From: a virus
IMG/VR virus record: IMGVR_UViG_3300035662_000072
Location: 1 to 37,724 of that record
Length of the DNA stretch: 37,724 nt
Reading direction: 5' to 3' (one strand)
Positions 1,382-20,683 of the stretch are shown one piece after another. The notes below the pieces were generated by a model. It searched no databases, was not told the DNA's origin, and worked only from the letters and a program-made list of their open reading frames with translations. How positions within the stretch are numbered: position 1 is the stretch's first letter; each line of letters opens with the position of its first letter. Both the position numbers and the translations under genes were made by a program.

Positions 1382-3373
1382 ATGGCTGATTTTAAAGAAG
1401 ACCCAGTATCTGAATCAGATAAAGACCTAGTAGCCTTTATTATTGATCATTGTGATCGGTGGAAAGAACACCGTGATAACAACTATCAGGCTAAGTGGGA
1501 CGAGTACGAGCGCCTCTACTACGGCGTATGGTCTGACGAGGACAAGACTCGTGACTCAGAGCGCAGTAGGCTTGTGTCCCCAGCTATCCGTCAGGCAGTA
1601 GAGAACAAGACCTCAGAGATCATTGAGGCTACCACAGGACGTGGTGAGTTCTTTGAGCTAGAGGATGACGCTGCTGACCAACAAGAGATGGACGTTGAGA
1701 TGGTTAGTAGACAGCTTCACGATGACCTAAAGAAAGACAAGGTGGACAAGGTTTGGGCAGAGGTAAACCGTAACGCTGAAGTCTTTGGCCTTGGTGTGGC
1801 AGAGATCCAGATTAAATCTACTATGGAATTGCAACCTGCTATGCAGCCTATGCCCGGTGGTATGGGTTCTGCTATTGGGGTAATGGAAGCAGAGCGTGTG
1901 TCTGTCCCTGTCAAGTCGGTGCATCCTCGTAACTTTGTTTGGGACCCTAACTCTGAGACTGTGGACGATGCATTGGGTGTAGCTATCGAGGAGTACACCA
2001 GCCTCTTTAAAGTAGTTAAAGGGATTGAAGATGGGATCTACAGAAAAGTTAATATTGGTCCTGAGTTTAGTGATGCTGATCTCATCCCAAATCAACTGGA
2101 CTCACTCTACCAAGAAGATAAGGTACGAGTCCTTCGCTACTACGGGTTAGTTCCTCGTGAGTACCTAGAGGATCTAGAGAACGAAGGTGGTGAGGTAGCT
2201 GACCTGTTCCCAGAGGACAGCGATGCAGACAAATACGCAGACATGGTGGAGGCTGTAGTTGTTATTGCTAACAACCAGTACCTGCTCAAGGCTGAAGCTA
2301 ACCCATACATGATGAAAGACCGTCCTATTGTGACCTATGTACCTGAGAAGGTATCAGGCAGACTAGTGGGTATGGGAACCGTGCAAAAAGGCTACAATAT
2401 GCAGAAAGCTATTGATGCCCAGCTCCGTAGTCATCTGGACTCTTTAGCACTGACTACGGCCCCTATGATGGCAGCGGACGCTACAAGGCTACCCCGTGGC
2501 GTGTCTTATAAGGTTCAACCCGGAAAGACCCTGCTTACCAACGGTAACCCTAACGAGATCCTCTTCCCGTTCAAGTTTGGTTCTACTGATGCAGGCAATA
2601 TCTCTACTGCTAAAGAGTTTGAGACTATGCTCCTTCAGGCTACAGGAACCCTAGATAGTCAGGCGATGACCCGCTCTGTGGCCCAAGGCGATGCTGGTGG
2701 GGCTTCTATGTCCCTTGCTATGTCTTCTATCATTAAGAAGAATAAGCAAGCACTCATGAACTTCCAAGATGACTTCTTGATCCCTCTGATTAAGAAGGTA
2801 GCCTATCGCTATATGCAGTTTGACCCAGAGCGTTACCCATCTAGGGACTTCAGATTCACCCCTGCCTCCACCCTTGGCATGGTAGCTAGGGAGTATGAGC
2901 AGCAACAGTTCATTGGACTACTCCAAACCCTTGGTCCTAACAGCCCTGTACTGCCCTTGGTCTTAAAAGGCATCATAAAAGGCTCTAGTCTGTCCAATAA
3001 GGAAGAACTTTCGGCTGCTTTGGACCAGATGAACCAGCCAGACCCGGCCCAACAACAGATGATGATGGCCCAACAGGAGGCTCAAATCGGGCTTCTACAG
3101 GCCCAGATCGCTGAACTGCAGGGTAGAGCACAGGAAAGCCAAGCAAACGCTCAGGAGAGCCTTGCAAAGGCCCAGAAAACCAGTGTTGAGACCCAGCTTA
3201 TGCCTGAAAAGATGCGGATTGATGTGATTCAGGCTTCTTCTACCAACCTTTCCAACGAGACTACGGATGATTTTGAGCGCAGGATCAAGCTTGCCAACGT
3301 AATCCTGAAGGAACGGGAGCTAAAAACCAAGGAAAACATCGTAGAAGCACAAATGAACAAAAAAGTACAGTAA
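1382..3373 (+). CDS. Portal protein
   Basis: Dodecameric ring at the unique capsid vertex through which DNA enters and leaves. The 663-aa protein has an acidic N-terminal region, a central wing/stem region, and a C-terminal Gln/Ala-rich helical stretch (about residues 555-663) that looks like a coiled coil or barrel extension. Large portals with such helical C-termini are typical of P22-like short-tailed phages. The position directly after terL supports the call. It starts 2 nt after the 33-aa gene, so translation is probably coupled. Identification rests on length, context and general resemblance, since portals are poorly conserved. Confidence 0.88.
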   Translation: MADFKEDPVSESDKDLVAFIIDHCDRWKEHRDNNYQAKWDEYERLYYGVWSDEDKTRDSERSRLVSPAIRQAVENKTSEIIEATTGRGEFFELEDDAADQQEMDVEMVSRQLHDDLKKDKVDKVWAEVNRNAEVFGLGVAEIQIKSTMELQPAMQPMPGGMGSAIGVMEAERVSVPVKSVHPRNFVWDPNSETVDDALGVAIEEYTSLFKVVKGIEDGIYRKVNIGPEFSDADLIPNQLDSLYQEDKVRVLRYYGLVPREYLEDLENEGGEVADLFPEDSDADKYADMVEAVVVIANNQYLLKAEANPYMMKDRPIVTYVPEKVSGRLVGMGTVQKGYNMQKAIDAQLRSHLDSLALTTAPMMAADATRLPRGVSYKVQPGKTLLTNGNPNEILFPFKFGSTDAGNISTAKEFETMLLQATGTLDSQAMTRSVAQGDAGGASMSLAMSSIIKKNKQALMNFQDDFLIPLIKKVAYRYMQFDPERYPSRDFRFTPASTLGMVAREYEQQQFIGLLQTLGPNSPVLPLVLKGIIKGSSLSNKEELSAALDQMNQPDPAQQQMMMAQQEAQIGLLQAQIAELQGRAQESQANAQESLAKAQKTSVETQLMPEKMRIDVIQASSTNLSNETTDDFERRIKLANVILKERELKTKENIVEAQMNKKVQ

Positions 3374-3965: not shown

Positions 3966-4781
3966 GTGGCAGCATCTTTTACCGAAACGCAAGAAGAGTT
4001 ATTTGAAGCAAGTGATATTACTCAGCAAGAGACTCAGCAAGTAGCTGAACAACCTCAGACTGAAACCGTACAGGAAGCAACTCCTGCAGAGGAGAATCTT
4101 CCAACCAAGTACAAGGGCAAGGGTCTTGATGAGATTATCAGGATGCACCAAGAGGCTGAGAAGCTTATTGGTAGACAAGCCCAAGAAGTTGGTGAAGTAC
4201 GAAAGCTTGCGGATGAGCTAATCAAGCGACAACTCGACAATAAGAAAGAAGTTGAGGTCACAAAAGAAGACGAGATCGATTTCTTTGAAGATCCGAAGAA
4301 GGCAGTAAACCGAGCAGTAGAAGCACATCCTGCTATTCTAGAGGCAAGGCAACAAACCTTGGCTTTAAAACAGCAGCAAACGCTGACAAAGTTACAACAG
4401 GAATTTCCTGACTTTCAGCAGACAGTAGCTGATCCTTCCTTTGCGGAGTGGATCAAAGCCTCACCAGTGCGTATGCGACTGTATGCTGCGGCTGATGCAG
4501 ACTTTGACTTTGATTCAGCCTCTGAGCTATTGACAAGTTGGAATTATGTTAAACCTAAAGCGGTAGCTCCTTCAGCTTCTGCTCCTGCGCCAGAGATTAA
4601 AGCGGCACAGAAAGCAGCAGTCAAATCAGCTACTGTAGATGTTGGTTCTAATACTGGTGCTACTTCTGCAAAGGTCTATCGAAGAGCGGATCTAATCCGT
4701 TTACAACTGGAAGACCCAGATCGTTATTACCAGCTACAAGATGAAATTATGGCTGCATACGCTCAGGGTCGAGTTAAATAA
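3966..4781 (+). CDS. Capsid scaffolding protein
   Basis: Internal scaffold that templates prohead assembly and is then removed. The 271-aa protein is highly acidic and Gln-rich at the N-terminus, has long predicted helices (residues about 50-150), an Ala/Pro linker (about 200-215), and a basic helical C-terminus ending in YAQGRVK. Acidic helical proteins with a basic C-terminal hook immediately before the coat gene are characteristic of phage scaffolds. It starts GTG behind GGACAGGAGGATAAT. No protease motif was seen. Confidence 0.85.
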   Translation: MAASFTETQEELFEASDITQQETQQVAEQPQTETVQEATPAEENLPTKYKGKGLDEIIRMHQEAEKLIGRQAQEVGEVRKLADELIKRQLDNKKEVEVTKEDEIDFFEDPKKAVNRAVEAHPAILEARQQTLALKQQQTLTKLQQEFPDFQQTVADPSFAEWIKASPVRMRLYAAADADFDFDSASELLTSWNYVKPKAVAPSASAPAPEIKAAQKAAVKSATVDVGSNTGATSAKVYRRADLIRLQLEDPDRYYQLQDEIMAAYAQGRVK

Positions 4782-4805: not shown

Positions 4806-5750
4806 ATGGCTCTTGGTACTGATCATGTAACAAAAACAACAGCGGATAAATTTATCCCTGAGATTTGGTCTGATGAAATCATCGCTGCTTACAAAAAGAA
4901 CTTGGTTGCTGCTAACCTGTTCTCGAAAATGTCTTTCAAAGGCAAGAAGGGTGATGTCCTTCACATTCCTAAGCCCACCCGTGGTGACGCTGCGCTCAAA
5001 GCTGCATCCAGTCAGGTAACTCTGATTGCTGCAACTGAGACTGAAGTTCTTGTTAACATTAACAAGCACTATGAGTACAGCCGCTTGATTGAAGATATTG
5101 TCGAAGTTCAGGCTCTCTCTTCGCTGCGCCGCTTCTACACGGATGATGCTGGCTATGCATTAGCTAAGCGTGTTGATATCGACTTGGTTCAGCTTGGTCG
5201 TGGTGTTAATGGTGCTACCATTGGTACGAATGACTACGCAACTGCTGCTGCAAGCACGAACGCTTTCATTGGTTCGACTGGCGCAACGATATACAACTCC
5301 AGCACGTCTAACGCTGCTGCTCTTGGTGAGGCAGGTATTCGCCGTTCCATCCAGCGTCTTGATGATCAAGATGTTCCGATGACTGATCGTTTCCTGATTG
5401 TTCCTCCGTCAAGCCGCAACACGTTGATGAGCATTCAGCGTTTCACAGAGCAGGCTTTTGTTGGCGAAGCTGGTTCCGCTAACACAATCCGTAACGGTCA
5501 AATCGGTGACGTGTTTGGTGTTAAAGTATTTGTAAGCACCAACGCTGACACTGCTGCTGGTGGTTCTGGCACAGACCGTATCTGCTTGTTAGCACACAAA
5601 GACGCGTTTGTGTTAGCTGAGCAGATGGGTGTTCGCTCACAGACTCAGTACAAACAAGAGTATCTTGGTACTCTGTTTACCAGCGATATGCTGTACGGTG
5701 TTGCTGAGTTGCGTGACGGCTCTGCTGTTGCTCTCGCAGTTCCTGCCTAA
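4806..5750 (+). CDS. Major capsid protein
   Basis: Coat protein of the icosahedral head, 314 aa, presumably HK97-fold. Placement after the scaffold, strong TTAGGAG ribosome binding site, Ala-rich body and absence of Cys-rich or enzyme motifs support the call. The N-terminal region (DKFIPEIWSDEIIAAYKKNL) and the region DVLHIPKPTRGD resemble coat proteins of short-tailed marine phages. Transcription probably comes from 3378-3406 and stops at the hairpin at 5771. Confidence 0.92.
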   Translation: MALGTDHVTKTTADKFIPEIWSDEIIAAYKKNLVAANLFSKMSFKGKKGDVLHIPKPTRGDAALKAASSQVTLIAATETEVLVNINKHYEYSRLIEDIVEVQALSSLRRFYTDDAGYALAKRVDIDLVQLGRGVNGATIGTNDYATAAASTNAFIGSTGATIYNSSTSNAAALGEAGIRRSIQRLDDQDVPMTDRFLIVPPSSRNTLMSIQRFTEQAFVGEAGSANTIRNGQIGDVFGVKVFVSTNADTAAGGSGTDRICLLAHKDAFVLAEQMGVRSQTQYKQEYLGTLFTSDMLYGVAELRDGSAVALAVPA

Positions 5751-5844: not shown

Positions 5845-7095
5845 ATGGCTATCTATCGTGGTCCTGGTGGTCCAGGTGATGCAACAGCAGATGCAGCCAA
5901 TGCCGCTGCACTAGCCCTACAGTATGCTACTCTGGCAGCTAACCAAGCTGCCGCTGCTGCTACAAGTGCTAACAATGCTGAGAACGACTCTACTGGTGCT
6001 ATAGCTGCTGCAACCGCTGCACAGGCTTCTGCTGCTGCTGCCTTAACTTCACAAATTACTGCTGCTTCTTCAGCAAGTAGCGCATCTAATTCTGCTTCTT
6101 CAGCACAGCTTGCATCTACAACATCTATTAACTTAGCTAACGGGTTTAATGTATCCGCTACTACGCTAAGTCCTGGTTCTTCTGCTACTGCTGCATTTAA
6201 TAATACTACTTACGAACTCTCTTTAGGTTTACCTAGAGGTGATGTAGGCGCTACAGGGGCCACAGGAGCTACTGGCGCAACTGGTTCAACAGGCGCTCCA
6301 GGACCAGGAAACACGCTTTCTATTGGTACGGTTGCGACTGGCGCTGCAGGCTCTAGTGCCAATGCTACAATCACTGGTACTTCTCCTAGTCAGACACTAA
6401 ACCTAACTATCCCTCGTGGTGATACTGGGGCTACTGGAGCAACAGGTGCTACAGGCTCTACAGGTGCTGCTGGAACCGCTGCAACGATTGCTGCAGGAAC
6501 TACCACAACTGGTGCTCCCGGATCTAATGCGTCAGTAACAAACTCTGGTACTAGTTCTGCTGCTGTGTTTGACTTTACTGTGCCTGCTGGTGCTACAGGC
6601 GCAACAGGTGCTACGGGAGCTACAGGAGCCGCAGGAGCTGCTGCTACGATTGCTGTAGGTACTACGACTACTGGGTCTCCAGGCTCTAGCGCAACAGTAA
6701 CTAACTCAGGCACTAGCTCTGCAGCAGTGTTTGACTTTACTATTCCTGCTGGACAGGGTGTGCCTACTGGCGGTACTACAGGTCAGGTATTGCAAAAGAA
6801 TAGTTCTACTAACTATGATACTTCTTGGATAACATTTAGTTCTTTACCTAGTCAAACTGGCAATAACGGTAAGTACTTAACCACTGACGGTAGTACAGCA
6901 TCTTGGGCTACGGTTGCTGGTGGTGGTCAGATGGAAGGTAGTGCAGCAGCTAAGGCAATCTTCTGGAATGCTCAGACAATTGGTGAGAACATCACTATTG
7001 ATGGTACTCACAATGGGTGGACAGTAGGCCCGATTACGGTTAACAATGGTTTTGCTGTAACGGTCAGCAACGGCGCAAGATGGGTGGTGTTCTAA
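5845..7095 (+). CDS. Tail fibre with collagen-like repeats
   Basis: 416-aa trimeric-fibre-type protein. An N-terminal GPGGPGDA motif is followed by about 90 residues of Ala/Ser/Thr/Asn-rich coiled coil similar in style to T7-like fibre shafts. Residues about 95-310 hold four repeats of a ~55-aa module, each ending in a hydrophobic strand plus a collagen-like block of GAT triplets (about 6240-6309, 6419-6478 and 6587-6648). A C-terminal domain of ~100 aa (after [14 protein letters not shown]) may bind receptor or cap the trimer. The ribosome binding site is CGGAG. It heads a run of fibre/adhesin genes. Confidence 0.82.
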
Positions 7096-8143: not shown

Positions 8144-9853
8144 ATGACCGGCATCTTTCAGATTCTTCTTGCGGGACAGGGTGCGCCGACTATCCTTGCT
8201 GACTACCTTGTTGTAGCGGGTGGTGGTGGGGGCGCTTCTGAGCGAGGCGGTGGCGGCGGAGCTGGTGGCTATCGTGAACTTACTTCTCAAAGTTTAAATT
8301 TTGGAACTGCATACACCGTAACCGTTGGAGCTGGAGGTGCGGCTGGAACTGCAAGTACCAAAGGCGGGACTGGTAGTAATTCGGTATTTTCCACAATTAC
8401 TTCTGCTGGTGGAGGTGGTGGCGGTTTCGGAGGCGGAAGTGGCTCAGATTACGACGGAAACAATGGCGGTTCGGGTGGTGGCGGTTCGGCTGGTAACTCA
8501 ATAAGCGGAACTGGTGGAACGGGCAACACACCATCCCAATCTCCATCTCAAGGAAATAATGGTGGTAATGGTTCTGGCGGCGCTAACCCAAATAACGCTG
8601 GAGGCGGTGGCGGTGGAGCAAGTGCCGTTGGAAGTAACGGCTCAAATAACAACGGCGGTAATGGCGGCGCTGGAACGTCATCATCAATTACTGGAACCTC
8701 AGTACCAAGGGCTGGTGGTGGTGGTGGTGGTTCTTACCCTTTGTCTGGTACTGGAGGCACAGGAGGAACTGGAGGCGGTGGAAATGGTGGCACTTCTTCT
8801 ACATCACCAACTGCGGGAGCCGCTAATACGGGTGGTGGTGGCGGTGGTGACGAAAGAAATAACAACGGTGCAGCAGGCGGCTCCGGCATTGTCATCATTA
8901 AAGTACCTGACAACATAGGCGCATCATTCTCTAGCGGCGTTACATCTAGCCTGTCCACATCCGGTGGGTTCAACATCTACTCTGTAACTGCTACGTCTAC
9001 TACATCTGAGACTGTGACGTTTGTTCGTAACTTTGATGTTGACTTCTTGGTGATTGCTGGTGGAGGCTCTGGCTCTGATTACGGTGGTGGTGGCGCTGGT
9101 GGTTATCGGACATCCGCAGGGACATCTGGGGGCGGCGCAAGCGCAGAAACAGCATTGTCTTTGCGTGTGGGAACTGCTTATACAGTCACAGTAGGTGCTG
9201 GCGGTACTGGTGGTGCTACTGGAAACAATGGTTCTAATTCTGTTCTAAGTACAATTACTTCAACGGGTGGTGGCAAAGGCGGTGGTAACACAGGCAACGC
9301 AGACGGTTCTAGTGGTGGCTCTGGCGGTGGTGGACGATGGAATGGTGGCGATGGGGCTGGAACGGCAAATCAGGGCTATGCGGGTGGTAGCGGTCATCCA
9401 AACTCTAGCGCCCCTTTTGCGGCTGGTGGTGGTGGGGGTGCAGGTGCTGTTGGTCAAGCCGGTCAATCAACTATTGGCGGTGCTGGCGGTAATGGTGTTG
9501 CATCTACTATCACAGGCTCATCTGTACCTAGAGCCGGAGGCGGTGGTGGTGGACACTTTAATGGTGCTGGAAGCCTTGCCTCTGGTGGAACTGGGGGTGG
9601 CGGTTCTGGTGGCAAGGCTGGCGCTAGTATGACCGCTGGCACTGCAAATACAGGTAGTGGTGGGGGTGGGGCTGGAAATACTGGTTCTAGTGGCGGCAAC
9701 GGTGGCTCCGGCGTAGTCATCATCAAGATTCCAGATAACCGCACCGCTACATTCTCAGGCGGCGTAACGCAATCCTCCACAACATCTGGCGGCTTCAAGA
9801 TTTACACCGTGACGGCTACTTCAACCACATCAGAAACAGTAACTTTTTCTTAA
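8144..9853 (+). CDS. Glycine-rich adhesin with tandem domain duplication
   Basis: 569-aa protein dominated by runs of Gly, Ser, Asn and Thr. It consists of two long homologous halves. Each opens with a DYLVVAGGGG- or VDFLVIAGGG-type strand, continues through AYTVTVGAGG, a polyglycine-rich body and a GSG-VVIIK-PDN strand, and closes with GGF-IYTVTATSTTSETVTF. The second half ends at SETVTFS, exactly where the first half continues into the next unit. Glycine-rich sheets of this kind are known from receptor-binding adhesins such as T-even gp38 (established knowledge), so host recognition is the likely role. Confidence 0.8.
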   Translation: MTGIFQILLAGQGAPTILADYLVVAGGGGGASERGGGGGAGGYRELTSQSLNFGTAYTVTVGAGGAAGTASTKGGTGSNSVFSTITSAGGGGGGFGGGSGSDYDGNNGGSGGGGSAGNSISGTGGTGNTPSQSPSQGNNGGNGSGGANPNNAGGGGGGASAVGSNGSNNNGGNGGAGTSSSITGTSVPRAGGGGGGSYPLSGTGGTGGTGGGGNGGTSSTSPTAGAANTGGGGGGDERNNNGAAGGSGIVIIKVPDNIGASFSSGVTSSLSTSGGFNIYSVTATSTTSETVTFVRNFDVDFLVIAGGGSGSDYGGGGAGGYRTSAGTSGGGASAETALSLRVGTAYTVTVGAGGTGGATGNNGSNSVLSTITSTGGGKGGGNTGNADGSSGGSGGGGRWNGGDGAGTANQGYAGGSGHPNSSAPFAAGGGGGAGAVGQAGQSTIGGAGGNGVASTITGSSVPRAGGGGGGHFNGAGSLASGGTGGGGSGGKAGASMTAGTANTGSGGGGAGNTGSSGGNGGSGVVIIKIPDNRTATFSGGVTQSSTTSGGFKIYTVTATSTTSETVTFS

Positions 9854-15418: not shown

Positions 15419-15702
15419 TGTATAAGTTTCCAGTAGTAAATAGACAAGAATATATAATGTACTTGGAGTTGTTTAGTAACTTATACTGGCTTCATACAGA
15501 TGTGTTTAAGTGGTCAGCAGAAACAAAGAAACATTATATTAGAGATTTAAACCAGCTTCAATCACTACTCAATGCTCCTTTATATGCAATGATAGACAAT
15601 GATAAGCTTAGTAAGTTTAGTAAAACGATAGGATTTGAATACTTAAAAAATTTGATAGGAAACGATGGAAATGTTTATCAGATTAATGTTAGGAGTTTAT
15701 AA
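15418..15702 (+). CDS. Hypothetical protein, 94 aa, next to tail fibre
   Basis: ATG at 15418 overlaps the fibre stop (TGATG); an upstream in-frame TTG at 15397 is less likely. Helical, rich in Tyr, Leu, Asn and Lys, without known motif, and more AT-rich than neighbours. Its place immediately after a collar fibre and its size would fit a fibre-assembly chaperone, but no sequence signature confirms that. Confidence 0.7.
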   Translation: MYKFPVVNRQEYIMYLELFSNLYWLHTDVFKWSAETKKHYIRDLNQLQSLLNAPLYAMIDNDKLSKFSKTIGFEYLKNLIGNDGNVYQINVRSL

Positions 15703-16601
15703 TGGGTAAGGCTATTGGAAAGTTTATCGGGGACATAACAGGGGCTAACCAAGCTCGTGATGCTGCAAACCAAGCAGCTCAATCACAACGAGAAGCTGCC
15801 CTAGCGTCAGTGTTCCGTCCTGTTGGGATGTCTTCTAGGTTTGGTACATCTAAATTTGGGTACGAAACTGTAGGAGGAATACCTAGAGTATCTTCTGCTG
15901 AGTATACAGTAGCTCCTGAGTTAAAAGCTATTCAGGACCAACTCTTTGGTCTAGCCCCATTTGCTGCTCAACAAGCTGCTGAGGCACAACAAGCTTCTCA
16001 ACAAGTAGGAATGGCAGGCCAACAGTTATTTGGATTAGGCCAGCAGTACATTGCTCAGTCTCCTGAGATGGCACGGCAGCAGTTCTTTAATGAACAGATG
16101 GCCTTGTTAGCTCCTGCTCGTCAGGCAGAAGAACAGCGACTGGCTTCCTCTGTTTTTGGTCGTGGTCGTGCTGGGTTAACCATCGGTGGGGCACAACCTG
16201 AACTGTCTACTTTAGCAGGTGCTCGTAGAATGCAAGAGTTACAGTTAGGTGCTCAAGCAGAGCAGGCAGCGCAGCAAAGGCAAATGTTTGGTTCTGGTCT
16301 CATGAGTCAAGGCCTTGGGTTGTTTGGTCAGCAGTACGCTCTTCCGGGTCAAGCTCTTGCTCCTCTACAGTCCTACCTTGGTACTATCGGTACTATCGAA
16401 GAGATGGGTCAGCAGCCTCTACAGCTTGGTCTACAGATTGGTGGAGCTGCTCAACAAGGCGCTTCTGCTGCTGCAGGATTACTCAGTCAAGCTGCTGCGA
16501 CTCAGTACGCTGGTGCAAAAGACGCTGCCGCAATAAACGCACAGTTGATTGCTGGTATAGCACAAGGCGCTGGTTCTGCATTTGGTGGTGGAAGACGATA
16601 A
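15702..16601 (+). CDS. Putative internal/ejection protein, 299 aa
   Basis: Ala/Gln/Gly-rich helical protein starting MGKAIGKFIGDITGANQARD, with long QQA-rich helices (residues about 80-200) and a Gly/Ala-rich C-terminus (AQGAGSAFGGGRR). Similar proteins in short-tailed phages are carried in the head and injected with DNA to form a conduit across the cell envelope. It starts on the stop codon of the preceding gene behind AGGAG. Identification is by composition and position, first of three such genes. Confidence 0.72.
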   Translation: MGKAIGKFIGDITGANQARDAANQAAQSQREAALASVFRPVGMSSRFGTSKFGYETVGGIPRVSSAEYTVAPELKAIQDQLFGLAPFAAQQAAEAQQASQQVGMAGQQLFGLGQQYIAQSPEMARQQFFNEQMALLAPARQAEEQRLASSVFGRGRAGLTIGGAQPELSTLAGARRMQELQLGAQAEQAAQQRQMFGSGLMSQGLGLFGQQYALPGQALAPLQSYLGTIGTIEEMGQQPLQLGLQIGGAAQQGASAAAGLLSQAAATQYAGAKDAAAINAQLIAGIAQGAGSAFGGGRR

Positions 16602-16610
16602 GGATAATAT

Positions 16611-18011
16611 ATGGCTAAGACAGGCATTTTTACACAGATACTTGGATACGATCCTGAAGAGCGTAAGCGTAAACGACAAGAAGAAGCAGCAAGAGTAAGT
16701 GCTTCGTTGTTAAGTGGAGACCCTTATCGGTCTATTGGGTTTTCTATCGGTCAGTTATTCGGAGCAGGGGCTAATAAGTTATTTGGATCAGAAGACCCAG
16801 AGATTAAGTTCCAATCTACTGTCCGTGACGCTATCTCTTCTGCTAGTCAAAACTATGAGGCAGGATCAGCAGACTATTATAAGGCTTTAGCAGCTTCTTT
16901 ACCGCAGACTTCTGAGTATGCTAACTCTATTGCAACAGCAAGAGAACTAGCTCAAAAGGCTGGACAAGAAGAGGAAAAACAGTTTAGGGATACCACAAAG
17001 TTTGTAGCAGATAATCCTGAAGCTTTAACAGGAGAAGCACAGAAACTGAATGCTCGTATTGCTGCTAAGTTAAGAGCTGCTGGTGTTGATCCTACACAGC
17101 CTTTATCTCGTGTTAATGAGATGGGGGTTGCTGAACCAATCGATCCTGTTTATTCAGAAAAAGTTAATCAATTTATTCAGGCTTTACCAGAAACACAAAG
17201 GTTAAATGCTTTAACTCAAGCTGCTACTCGTGGTACTATGAAGTTAGACATGGATTTAAATAAACCAGAGTCTATGTCTAAGATAGGCTTTGCTGCTGAT
17301 GACGGTCAGGCCGTATACAGACTAGGAGATCAACAGTTTAAGTTAGGTGTTGGAGGGCAGAGAACTCCTTACTTTGGCGGTTTTCGTAAAGAAGGTGCTG
17401 ATATTACTATTAACACTCCTAAAGAACGATTTGCAGTATTAGGTCAGTTTAGGGAAGCAATAAAAGATGTTAGTAAGCAGATTATTCCATTAAACAGGGC
17501 TTTGGAACTAAACTCTAGAAAAGAGAGTCCATTGTCAGCAGCGGCGTTAAAGCAAGAACTTGGTTCTGCCTTTGGAGATTCTCAGAAAGCAGCATCAGAG
17601 ATAGCAGCTTTAGGAAACACAGGAGCGTTAGATACTCGTATTGCAGGCCGTATTTCTAGTTTCTTAACAGGTACTGGTGTAGCTCCTCAAAAGTCTGACA
17701 TTGACGCAACATTAAAAGCTCTTCGAGATAACGTGCTAAAGCCTCAATATGAATCAATTGCAAGTACATATAGAGCTGCTGCGGGTGATGAAAAGGAAGC
17801 TAACTTATTGTTTCCTCCTTTTGAAAAGCAGTTTGCACTAACAAGAGGGCTTGAACCAAAAGCACCTGCTGCGCCAGACACTGTGTCTTTGTCGGCAGCA
17901 CAAAAGAAAGATCCACGTTATGCTGAAAATTCTGTACATACAAAACCAGATGGTAGTGTATACATAGTTCAAAAAGGCGTTCTGGTAAAACAAAAGAAAA
18001 AGGAACAATAA
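16611..18011 (+). CDS. Putative internal/ejection protein, 466 aa
   Basis: Large helical, Ala/Lys/Gln-rich protein (GYDPEERKRKRQEEAARVSA near the N-terminus) with a basic C-terminal tail (VQKGVLVKQKKKEQ). No enzymatic motif recognised. Ribosome binding site AAGGATAATAT. It lies between two other presumed ejection proteins with 2-9 nt gaps. Probably ejected into the host with the genome; alternative roles as inner-core structural protein cannot be excluded. Confidence 0.7.
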   Translation: MAKTGIFTQILGYDPEERKRKRQEEAARVSASLLSGDPYRSIGFSIGQLFGAGANKLFGSEDPEIKFQSTVRDAISSASQNYEAGSADYYKALAASLPQTSEYANSIATARELAQKAGQEEEKQFRDTTKFVADNPEALTGEAQKLNARIAAKLRAAGVDPTQPLSRVNEMGVAEPIDPVYSEKVNQFIQALPETQRLNALTQAATRGTMKLDMDLNKPESMSKIGFAADDGQAVYRLGDQQFKLGVGGQRTPYFGGFRKEGADITINTPKERFAVLGQFREAIKDVSKQIIPLNRALELNSRKESPLSAAALKQELGSAFGDSQKAASEIAALGNTGALDTRIAGRISSFLTGTGVAPQKSDIDATLKALRDNVLKPQYESIASTYRAAAGDEKEANLLFPPFEKQFALTRGLEPKAPAAPDTVSLSAAQKKDPRYAENSVHTKPDGSVYIVQKGVLVKQKKKEQ

Positions 18012-18013
18012 GA

Positions 18014-20683
18014 ATGGGTGATGATTTCTTTGCTGATTTAACTCCTGTTCGTAAGCCAAGAAGTGTTATGGGAGACTTGTCTGAGGACGAAGAAGAGCGT
18101 CTTAGAAGGCAAGGTAGTCCCGGCGCTGCTGTAACTGCAGGAGGCCCCGGCTTTGTGGCTGTAGAGCCTGACGTAGCCCCTACTAAAGTAGACTTTGGGG
18201 ATTATGTTGCTAATAGGCTAAAACTAGGATTCAGTAATCTTGTTACTTTACTGTCCTCAAGTGAAGCTGAAAAGCAGGTATTAAGGGGAGGACAGCCGTA
18301 CTTTGGCTTTGAGCCAGCAACTCAGCCTGATTTAGTAACACGAATGTTTGGTGCTGGTGTTGAAGCGGTTCCTATGGTTGCTTTACCTGTTCCTTTAAGA
18401 GGTGCTTCTTTGTTTGCCCGTGGCAGAACAGGAGCAGTCACTGGTGCGTTTGGGGCAGGTGCTGGAGCAGAATTTGCAGGTGGTATTGGTCAAGAAGTAG
18501 CAGGTGCTCCGGGTCGAATTACTGGCGAATTGGTAGGAGGAGTAACTGGAGGAGGAACGGGTCAAATATTAGGAGACTTGGTTAGCGGTAAATTAATCTC
18601 TATTGGGTCAAACTTATATCGTTCAATGTTAAAAGATGTGTCAGATGCTGTTGGTCCTGAGAATATGAATAAGATTCTTACGGCGGCTAATGCACAACAA
18701 ATGGAACAACTGCTTAAAGAAAATCCTCAGATGGTGGAGCAGTTAGCTAGGGTTCAACAACTAAAACAGTTTATTCCGGGCTTTGATCCTAATCTTTATC
18801 AGGCCACTGGAGCAACAACTGCTAGTACTAGAGCACGAGCAGCCCTTGAGCGTAGGCCAGAACAGATTCCTGAAGTAGAAAAACAAACTATTGCTAGTCA
18901 AATAGCTATCAAGAACAAGGCTGCGGAGCTATTTCCATCCTCGTCTTCGTCCTATGTATTTGCTGGTAGGCAGTTAGACCGTACAGCGGCTGCTCTGTCT
19001 ACTTTGGTTAACTCAGCAGATGACGATATACAGAGACTATCTTCACAGTTTGTCAAGACTGGTGCTCAAGATTTAGGTGCTCAGATTCGTGCGCGTTATA
19101 CAAACCGTAGGGAAGCTACTCGTCAATCTTTTGACACTCAGTATGACGCACTAGATGCAGAAGCCTCATCTAAGAATGTGAATCTAAAACCAGCACAGAC
19201 TGAATCTATTTATAACTTTGTCAATAGTAATAAGCAAGTATTTGAGCAGAACCCACAACTTTTTAAACTTGTTGATGATGCTTTTGCTCCTCAGAAAGTA
19301 GAAAGTATAAGTATACTAGGCCCTGATGGTCTTCCAATGACTGAAAATAAACCAGCCTTTGGGTCTACGTCATTTAAAGATGTTCGGTCACTCTATCGTC
19401 AAATTAACAAAGACTTGTATGCAGCAGATCTAGCAAACTCTCAAGGTGTGCCGGGAGCTGGTAGGCAGGCTATGCTATTGGGTGACTTAAAGGGTCAAGT
19501 AAAAGCACAGATTGATTCTCTTCCAGAAGATATTAGAGACAAGTTCTATGGTCTTAATGCAGCCTATGACCGCGACTATCGTGAGGTATTTAAGCGTGGT
19601 CTTGGTGGTCTATTAGGGGCAGAGACAAGGCTTGGTGTTCGTGTCAAGGACGAAGATGTAATTGATAAGCTAGTCAAACCATCAAATGTCGATGACTTCT
19701 TTAAAATCTTTGGTGATAATGATGAAACACAAGAGTATCTTAAGGCTGGTTTAATTGATAAGTTTTTGAAATCTACTTCATCCTTAAATGCTGATGGAAC
19801 AGTAAATCAAACAGCCCTTCGTACCTTTATGCGTACTAATGATGGAGTTGTTAGGAAGATCCCAGCACTACAAGACTTTCTGTCCAATACCGAAGGTGCG
19901 CTGGCTACACACCTTGCTAAGAAGAATGCTGCTCTGGAGGGCGAACAAGCTCTGGAGAGGTCTGCTCTTCGTGCAATTACTAAGCGTCAGGATCTAGAAA
20001 AGGTATTTGCTACCACTCAAGCAGGAGCTTTTGAGGACATGAATAGGCTGGCAGCTATTACAGCGGCAGCTAAGGCTGATCCAACTGGAAGATCCTTAAG
20101 AGGAATGCAGGGTATTATGTTGGATCGTGCCATAAACTCAACAGATCCTGTTAAGTTCTTTCAGGATAATAAACTAGCATTTACTAGGGCTTTTGGTAAA
20201 GAACAGTTTAATCAAGCCTCACAGTTAGTAGAAGCTGCTCAACTACTAACAAGAAAGCTTAATGTTTCACCGCCAATACAAATCCTTGAAGGAGACGTTC
20301 TTCAGCAGATGATAGGAACAAGTGCCACAGGTGTTATGTCTACGATCCGTAGGCCAATTGTGTCTGCTCCTCAGAAAGCAGCTATTCTGTTCTCAAGGTT
20401 CTTTCAGCAAAAGGGAATGGAAGCAAAAGATAATGCTTGGATTAACCTGTTTAAAGACACTGACGCTGCTAAAGAAGCCTTAAAACAAGTTAAAATTATT
20501 AATACTGATGCTGCCTCAGATAAGGCTAAAGACATCGCCCTCGGGGTTTTAAACACTGTGATGGGCAGGGTTGGTGTTAATATCTATCGTGCCGGAGTTG
20601 TGACTGGAATGGCAGAATCTCGTCCTGAACAGGTGCTTCCAGAAGAAGAAGATTTTTTTAGTGATCTTACACCAGTAAGGTAA
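18014..20683 (+). CDS. Large internal virion/ejection protein, 889 aa
   Basis: Longest gene in the window. The N-terminus carries DDFFADLTPVR (residues 3-13) and the last residues are EDFFSDLTPVR, so one short motif occurs at both extreme ends. Residues about 90-200 are Gly/Ala-rich and weakly hydrophobic (GAFGAGAGAEFAGGIGQEVA), which might interact with membrane. The remainder is long helical segments. No lysozyme or transglycosylase motif seen. By size and position it corresponds to the largest internal core/ejection protein of a podovirus. Confidence 0.73.
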   Translation: MGDDFFADLTPVRKPRSVMGDLSEDEEERLRRQGSPGAAVTAGGPGFVAVEPDVAPTKVDFGDYVANRLKLGFSNLVTLLSSSEAEKQVLRGGQPYFGFEPATQPDLVTRMFGAGVEAVPMVALPVPLRGASLFARGRTGAVTGAFGAGAGAEFAGGIGQEVAGAPGRITGELVGGVTGGGTGQILGDLVSGKLISIGSNLYRSMLKDVSDAVGPENMNKILTAANAQQMEQLLKENPQMVEQLARVQQLKQFIPGFDPNLYQATGATTASTRARAALERRPEQIPEVEKQTIASQIAIKNKAAELFPSSSSSYVFAGRQLDRTAAALSTLVNSADDDIQRLSSQFVKTGAQDLGAQIRARYTNRREATRQSFDTQYDALDAEASSKNVNLKPAQTESIYNFVNSNKQVFEQNPQLFKLVDDAFAPQKVESISILGPDGLPMTENKPAFGSTSFKDVRSLYRQINKDLYAADLANSQGVPGAGRQAMLLGDLKGQVKAQIDSLPEDIRDKFYGLNAAYDRDYREVFKRGLGGLLGAETRLGVRVKDEDVIDKLVKPSNVDDFFKIFGDNDETQEYLKAGLIDKFLKSTSSLNADGTVNQTALRTFMRTNDGVVRKIPALQDFLSNTEGALATHLAKKNAALEGEQALERSALRAITKRQDLEKVFATTQAGAFEDMNRLAAITAAAKADPTGRSLRGMQGIMLDRAINSTDPVKFFQDNKLAFTRAFGKEQFNQASQLVEAAQLLTRKLNVSPPIQILEGDVLQQMIGTSATGVMSTIRRPIVSAPQKAAILFSRFFQQKGMEAKDNAWINLFKDTDAAKEALKQVKIINTDAASDKAKDIALGVLNTVMGRVGVNIYRAGVVTGMAESRPEQVLPEEEDFFSDLTPVR

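Follow-up and report, generated by a model that had tools for sequence, protein, structure and literature searches.

Why should the largest protein of a phage ejection block begin and end with the same short peptide? The question is posed by a 37,724-nucleotide stretch of viral DNA (positions 1 to 37,724 of IMG/VR record IMGVR_UViG_3300035662_000072; hereafter the window), in which, as in dozens of relatives, a 622-aa tail gene is followed by a fibre gene, three genes that we call A, B and C, and lysis genes. By synteny, A (15702..16601, + strand, 299 aa) lies in the gp14/gp7-like position, B (16611..18011, +, 466 aa) in the gp20/gp15-like position, and C (18014..20683, +, 889 aa) in the gp16-like position. 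Like the gp16-like proteins of P22, Sf6 and T7, C closes an ejection block of three genes and is the largest of them, and the block follows the tail genes; unlike those families, it has no significant match to gp16 or internal virion protein profiles, its only match being to phrog_16692, a family of unknown function (E=4.5e-4). Other occupants of the same slot match the internal virion protein families phrog_342 and phrog_6651 with E values down to 6.6e-40, and by eye a small FPDGTS/FPDSMS-type module opens both P22 gp16 and several slot-C proteins. For B, the profile concerned is phrog_2534, whose annotation, "released from the phage upon host infection", is the phrase also applied to P22 gp20; it is matched by 5 of 52 group members (best E value 1.9e-10, there in the C-terminal half of B) and not by the window's own protein. 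Given that neither the window's B nor its C has such a match, the identity of both rests on position: C is a putative gp16-like ejection protein and B a putative gp20/gp15-like one, and their presence in the virion and ejection from it are likewise putative. The A proteins of the window and of a relative, L054 (6392-7510, 373 aa; L numbers designate loci), have the first ~80% in common and unrelated C-termini. Elsewhere in the window are a ribonucleotide reductase gene with a match to a B12-dependent-type insertion domain (PF21995; 22230-24119, minus strand), beside a lysozyme gene, and, upstream of the tail genes, GATGATG repeats of a collagen-like kind and a tail protein very rich in glycine (5845-7095 and 8144-9853).

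The protein C opens with MGDDFFADLTPVR and closes with EEEDFFSDLTPVR (in longer extracts of the reading frame, MGDDFFADLTPVRK at the start and PEEEDFFSDLTPVR at the end). Its N-terminal tag, DDFFADLTPVR, spans residues 3-13 (18020..18052, +), and its C-terminal tag, EDFFSDLTPVR, spans residues 879-889 (20648..20680, +), flush with the end of the protein; a sequence-only reading of this DNA, which first pointed out the match, placed the start at 18020, which is residue 3 of a frame that begins at 18014. The match is real, as that reading had proposed. The two tags are identical at 9 of 11 residues, and when we permuted the two 35-residue tails of C, none of 30,000 shuffles reached the observed ungapped BLOSUM62 score of 52 (best shuffle, 47). 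C therefore bears the same short peptide within about 5 residues of both termini, beyond chance, which is how we define paired end-tags. Across all six reading frames, the window contains no further copy of the DFFxDLTPV motif. At the DNA level only 22 of 33 bases match, and the same codon is used at 3 of the 9 identical residues, where the codon usage of the gene itself predicts 4.1, which bears out the further claim that the tags do not stem from a recent DNA duplication. The same reading had suggested that the tags might mark processed ends; among the proteins scanned, from about half of the window's genes, none was recognised as a protease.

To what extent does this particular peptide reach beyond the window? 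Both tags are kept in full-length close relatives of C (94 to 100% identical), except that DLTPVP replaces DLTPVR at the N-terminal end in L054 and L005. When all IMG/VR viral contigs were scanned with a degenerate DNA pattern for FFxDLTPV followed by R or S, convincing genes were found only in these close relatives, the remaining matches being very short frames or one internal chance match, and a phage-wide conserved FFxDLTPV signature is thereby ruled out. A true homologue of the window's C exists in the 888-aa protein of L060, L061 and L062 (46% identical over window residues 47-868), and more remote homologues (22% identical) in L036/L027 and in L091. None of these carries DFFxDLTPV at either end, and the 46%-identical homologue is without paired tags altogether. 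The literal motif thus fails as a shared feature of the protein's homologues, which the sequence-only reading had named as the finding that would count against it, while the wider pattern of paired end-tags, described next, stands. By tblastn with the C proteins of the window, L060, L036 and L148 as queries, we found no homologues in named phages.

We collected about 220 loci in three scans using the neighbouring 622-aa tail gene as bait. In this group of freshwater podoviruses, slot C, third in the block that follows the fibre gene, is extremely variable and holds many unrelated or deeply diverged proteins. In some relatives it is split into three genes of ~510, ~215 and ~680 aa (L065:6006-10182 and L084:8773-13032), of which the first and third match T7-like internal virion protein families. 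In a first batch, 153 protein clusters were each represented by one member, whose first 35 residues were scored against its last 35. Five scores were at least 33, all from slot C and all flush with both ends, and the next, 29, was scattered. The five pairs were DDFFADLTPVR/EDFFSDLTPVR, LTPQEQEELTRLETEL/LTDAEKEELQRLEAEV, SLQELEEELSKREQ/SVEDLEAELLRRQQ, AIDLEEYIRNL/SIDLERYIQEL and INWDEY/INWDAY. Paired end-tags were thus present in 5 of 26 slot-C clusters and in 0 of 127 others (Fisher p=1e-4), a comparison that carries the caveat that some tag-bearing families had been spotted by eye before the scoring rule existed. For a second batch, the rule was fixed beforehand (score of at least 30, starting and ending no more than 6 residues from the termini). 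Five of 137 clusters passed, and three of them were large slot-C proteins, those of L248, L214 and L185 (VIVNIDGQQV/VVVNIDGTNV); the other two, a fibre of L232 and an A protein of L214, were set aside as Gly/Ser-rich low-complexity matches. Four further proteins (L230, L225, L221 and L233) look paired to the eye and fall below the rule. A 12x12 cross-table of tags, whose members were picked for matching, is illustrative only. In the five first-batch types the tags begin at residue 2 to 4 and finish no more than 4 residues from the C-terminus, and each type of C has its own, independent peptide. Most slot-C proteins are without paired tags, so the device is optional. That matching ends recur with other motifs in other occupants of the same slot is what the earlier suggestion of a docking tag would lead one to expect.

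The way in which these peptides change is informative. Among the deeply diverged relatives that make up family F4, both ends switch jointly (the pairs are LTPQEQEELTRLEAEL/LTDAEKEELQRLEAEV, IDLEEYIRNL/IDLERYIQEL and INWDEY/INWDAY) over protein cores whose identity, taken per tenth of the length, is about 14 to 44% between L118 and the others and 43 to 72% between L148 and L163. In most pairs, codons at identical residues are shared no more often than chance predicts. Because the residues stay matched while the codons mostly do not, selection likely acts on the tags at the protein level. One pair, INWDEY/INWDAY of L163, has the same codon at all five shared residues and may have been copied recently. 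In the 21 tag codons, 0 synonymous changes separate the window from L054, compared to 196 in the 889 codons overall, which may reflect signals in the start and stop regions or recent exchange.

Given that both tags change together, any receptor specific for them must change with them. The portal and the scaffold had been offered as binding partners of the tag, and we compared three candidates among phages that differ in their tags: the portal protein (1382..3373, +; phrog_1216), the scaffold-like protein (3966..4781, +; phrog_19777) and the major capsid protein (4806..5750, +; phrog_267). In six phages with scaffolds 97 to 100% and capsid proteins 97 to 99% identical, slot C holds proteins with LTPQEQ tags, proteins with IDLEEY tags, or other, untagged proteins. 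Portals are likewise 97 to 100% identical between one LTPQEQ-tagged phage and untagged ones. Near identity across different tags or none makes all three unlikely as tag-specific receptors and speaks against the portal and scaffold proposal.

What does change with C is the end of B. We found that B (16611-18011 in the window) is chimeric, with a recurrent breakpoint near its middle, as is evident when the window is compared with the B proteins of L017-L172. The N-terminal part moves freely between phages: 283 pairs of loci share the start of B (first 100 residues) and differ in both the end of B and C. By contrast, the last 130 residues of B and the C protein agree, with 94 pairs sharing both and only six exceptions having the same B end and a different C, all of which include L149, where a misread fragment of 142 aa stands in for C. 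In eight other pairs C is shared and the B ends are 54 to 58% identical, just below threshold. Similarly, within the C-terminal half of the window's B (17403..18008, +), residues 265-456 are 32% identical to the B proteins of L060-type phages, those with the homologous C, and to no others. In one natural swap, L039 and L021 differ only in the last ~15 residues of B and the first ~55 of C, the remainder of C being 88 to 98% identical. In family F12, the tag is present at the end of B as well; a third copy on the B tail is not general (p=0.24) and is confined to that family. Genomic linkage could contribute to the co-inheritance, since the C-terminal half of B adjoins C, though the breakpoints fall inside B.

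These patterns can be set against what is known of cultured phages. In P22 and Sf6, gp16 and the preceding gp20 must match to function, and gp16 from another phage is still built into virions (PMC10883804). T7 gp16 stabilises the C-termini of gp15 (PMC8954989), and the two form an octamer of gp15 with a tetramer of gp16 (PMC11784390). In N4, the largest ejection protein is the virion RNA polymerase, and its N-terminal domain is proposed to bind the C-terminus of the tube protein gp51 (PMC12633501). Together with the co-inheritance, these data favour a docking of both ends of C on the C-terminal half of B. We propose that C is a gp16-like ejection protein whose flexible ends each carry a docking peptide, and that the two ends would recognise sites of one kind on a partner from their own exchangeable cassette, for which the C-terminal half of B is the likeliest candidate. 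One molecule of C would then occupy two equivalent sites on an oligomeric ring or tube of B, which would help to resolve the mismatch in copy number between B and C (8:4 in T7) and would hold C to the tube while DNA is delivered. Four C molecules with two tags each would fill eight B sites, an arithmetic that fits the T7 numbers and is not an observation. Under this scheme the tags would act in the core or delivery channel and not as a packaging label. Bivalent docking of C by its paired tags on the tube or ring of the matching B, whether in assembly or in the delivery of DNA, we regard as quite possible. The stronger version, that cassette-specific paired tags in a large group of uncultured podoviruses fit the C-terminal half of B, the periplasmic-tube protein, as a key fits a lock, reconcile rings in a 2:1 ratio and make the B half and C an exchangeable module, is more doubtful.

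Of the other explanations, contacts between C molecules survive best. The identical ends might pair with each other or bind the cores of neighbouring C molecules and so build a ring of C; here too the receptor would lie inside the cassette and change with C, and some tags resemble amphipathic helices that could self-associate (LEAEL, LEEELSKRE). However, DFFxDLTPVR and INWDEY are short, with many aromatic residues and prolines, and appear unlike coiled coils, and such a model does not need the co-inherited part of B; we consider it unlikely. Alternatively, the tags could act after delivery on a host component such as an inner-membrane or cytoplasmic protein, their diversity mirroring that of the hosts. 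Gp16-like proteins do reach the inner membrane and cytoplasm (PMC8954989), and phages whose virion genes are otherwise shared differ in their tags, but a host target alone leaves both the co-inheritance with B and the tag copy on the B tail of F12 unexplained, which renders this reading improbable. A role in packaging, in which both ends bind scaffold, portal or shell and bring C into the procapsid, has a precedent in T4, whose internal proteins are taken into the scaffolding core by a short conserved targeting sequence, the CTS (PMC3012670). Against it stand the nearly invariant scaffold, capsid and portal proteins described above and the finding that P22 virions take up Sf6 gp16 even when gp20 does not match, and that this gp16 fails to function unless gp20 is swapped too (PMC10883804). 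Packaging as the main role of the tags, as the sequence-only reading had it, is therefore doubtful and indeed distinctly improbable: it would be viable only if the receptor accepts very different peptides, although a site of that kind is still conceivable. Least probable of all is that the tags are functionless relics, short terminal duplications drifting in lockstep or spread by occasional recombination, since the shared codons of the L163 pair and the unchanged tag codons of the window and L054 are outweighed by residues that stay matched over near-chance codon sharing in most pairs and by repeated independent occurrence in a single gene slot.

The structure predictions were too weak to bear on the docking proposal. 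AlphaFold2 models were poor (mean pLDDT of 45 for C and 61 for B), and neither protein had a PDB match, whether by the fold of these models or by sequence. The last ~45 residues of B are predicted to form a small beta module, with strands at residues 442-460 and a pLDDT of about 82 to 92 up to residue 460. What the sequences show is the pairing of the tags, their confinement to slot C, the separate motifs of different C types and the joint inheritance of C and the end of B; that the tags bind, that they bind B and that they do so bivalently are inferences.

The arrangement resembles several known systems in part. Like the T4 CTS (PMC3012670), the tags are short peptides on otherwise diverse internal proteins. 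The CTS, however, is one sequence that occurs on several internal proteins and leads into the scaffolding core, whereas the tags of the window's group vary over scaffolds, shells and portals that are nearly identical, and DFFxDLTPV sits only at the two ends of C. The likeness to N4 lies in the proposed joining of the largest ejection protein to the C-terminus of the tube protein; the N4 polymerase has ~3,500 residues, and the available passages of that report describe no paired end-tag (PMC12633501). We found no paired identical end-tags in T7, P22, BPP-1, BcepC6B, HMO-2011, HTVC010P, HTVC115P, VpV262, MQM1, CRP-235, RHph_N3_13 or ctKR88, several of which are partial records. Four of these phages have a short peptide repeated in tandem near one end of their largest internal protein (EENPFARFKP/EENPFLKFKP; FDAAVAGTL/FDAAVAGVL), with both copies at the N-terminal end and sequences unrelated to DFFxDLTPV, as opposed to the one copy per terminus in the window. 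These tandem motifs lie within the first ~60 residues in Rhizobium phage RHph_N3_13 (L174:23736-27503), Bordetella phage BPP-1 (L182:6187-12345, minus strand), Aeromonas phage MQM1 (L183:23218-25674) and Roseobacter phage CRP-235 (L175:34522-37339). In the titles, abstracts and passages searched, mostly of openly available papers, we found no description of paired end-tags on ejection proteins. Our results suggest that the DNA-injection machine includes a two-handed docking device which, as far as we could find, has not been described before.

It is poorly understood how three ejection proteins that are unrelated and that unfold come to form one channel in short-tailed phages, and how rings of mismatched symmetry are matched. 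Paired tags that travel with one half of the tube protein offer a testable handle on which parts touch, and they point to places at which ejection genes might be exchanged while the machine keeps working. They could also mark ejection proteins in metagenomes that would otherwise be unrecognisable.
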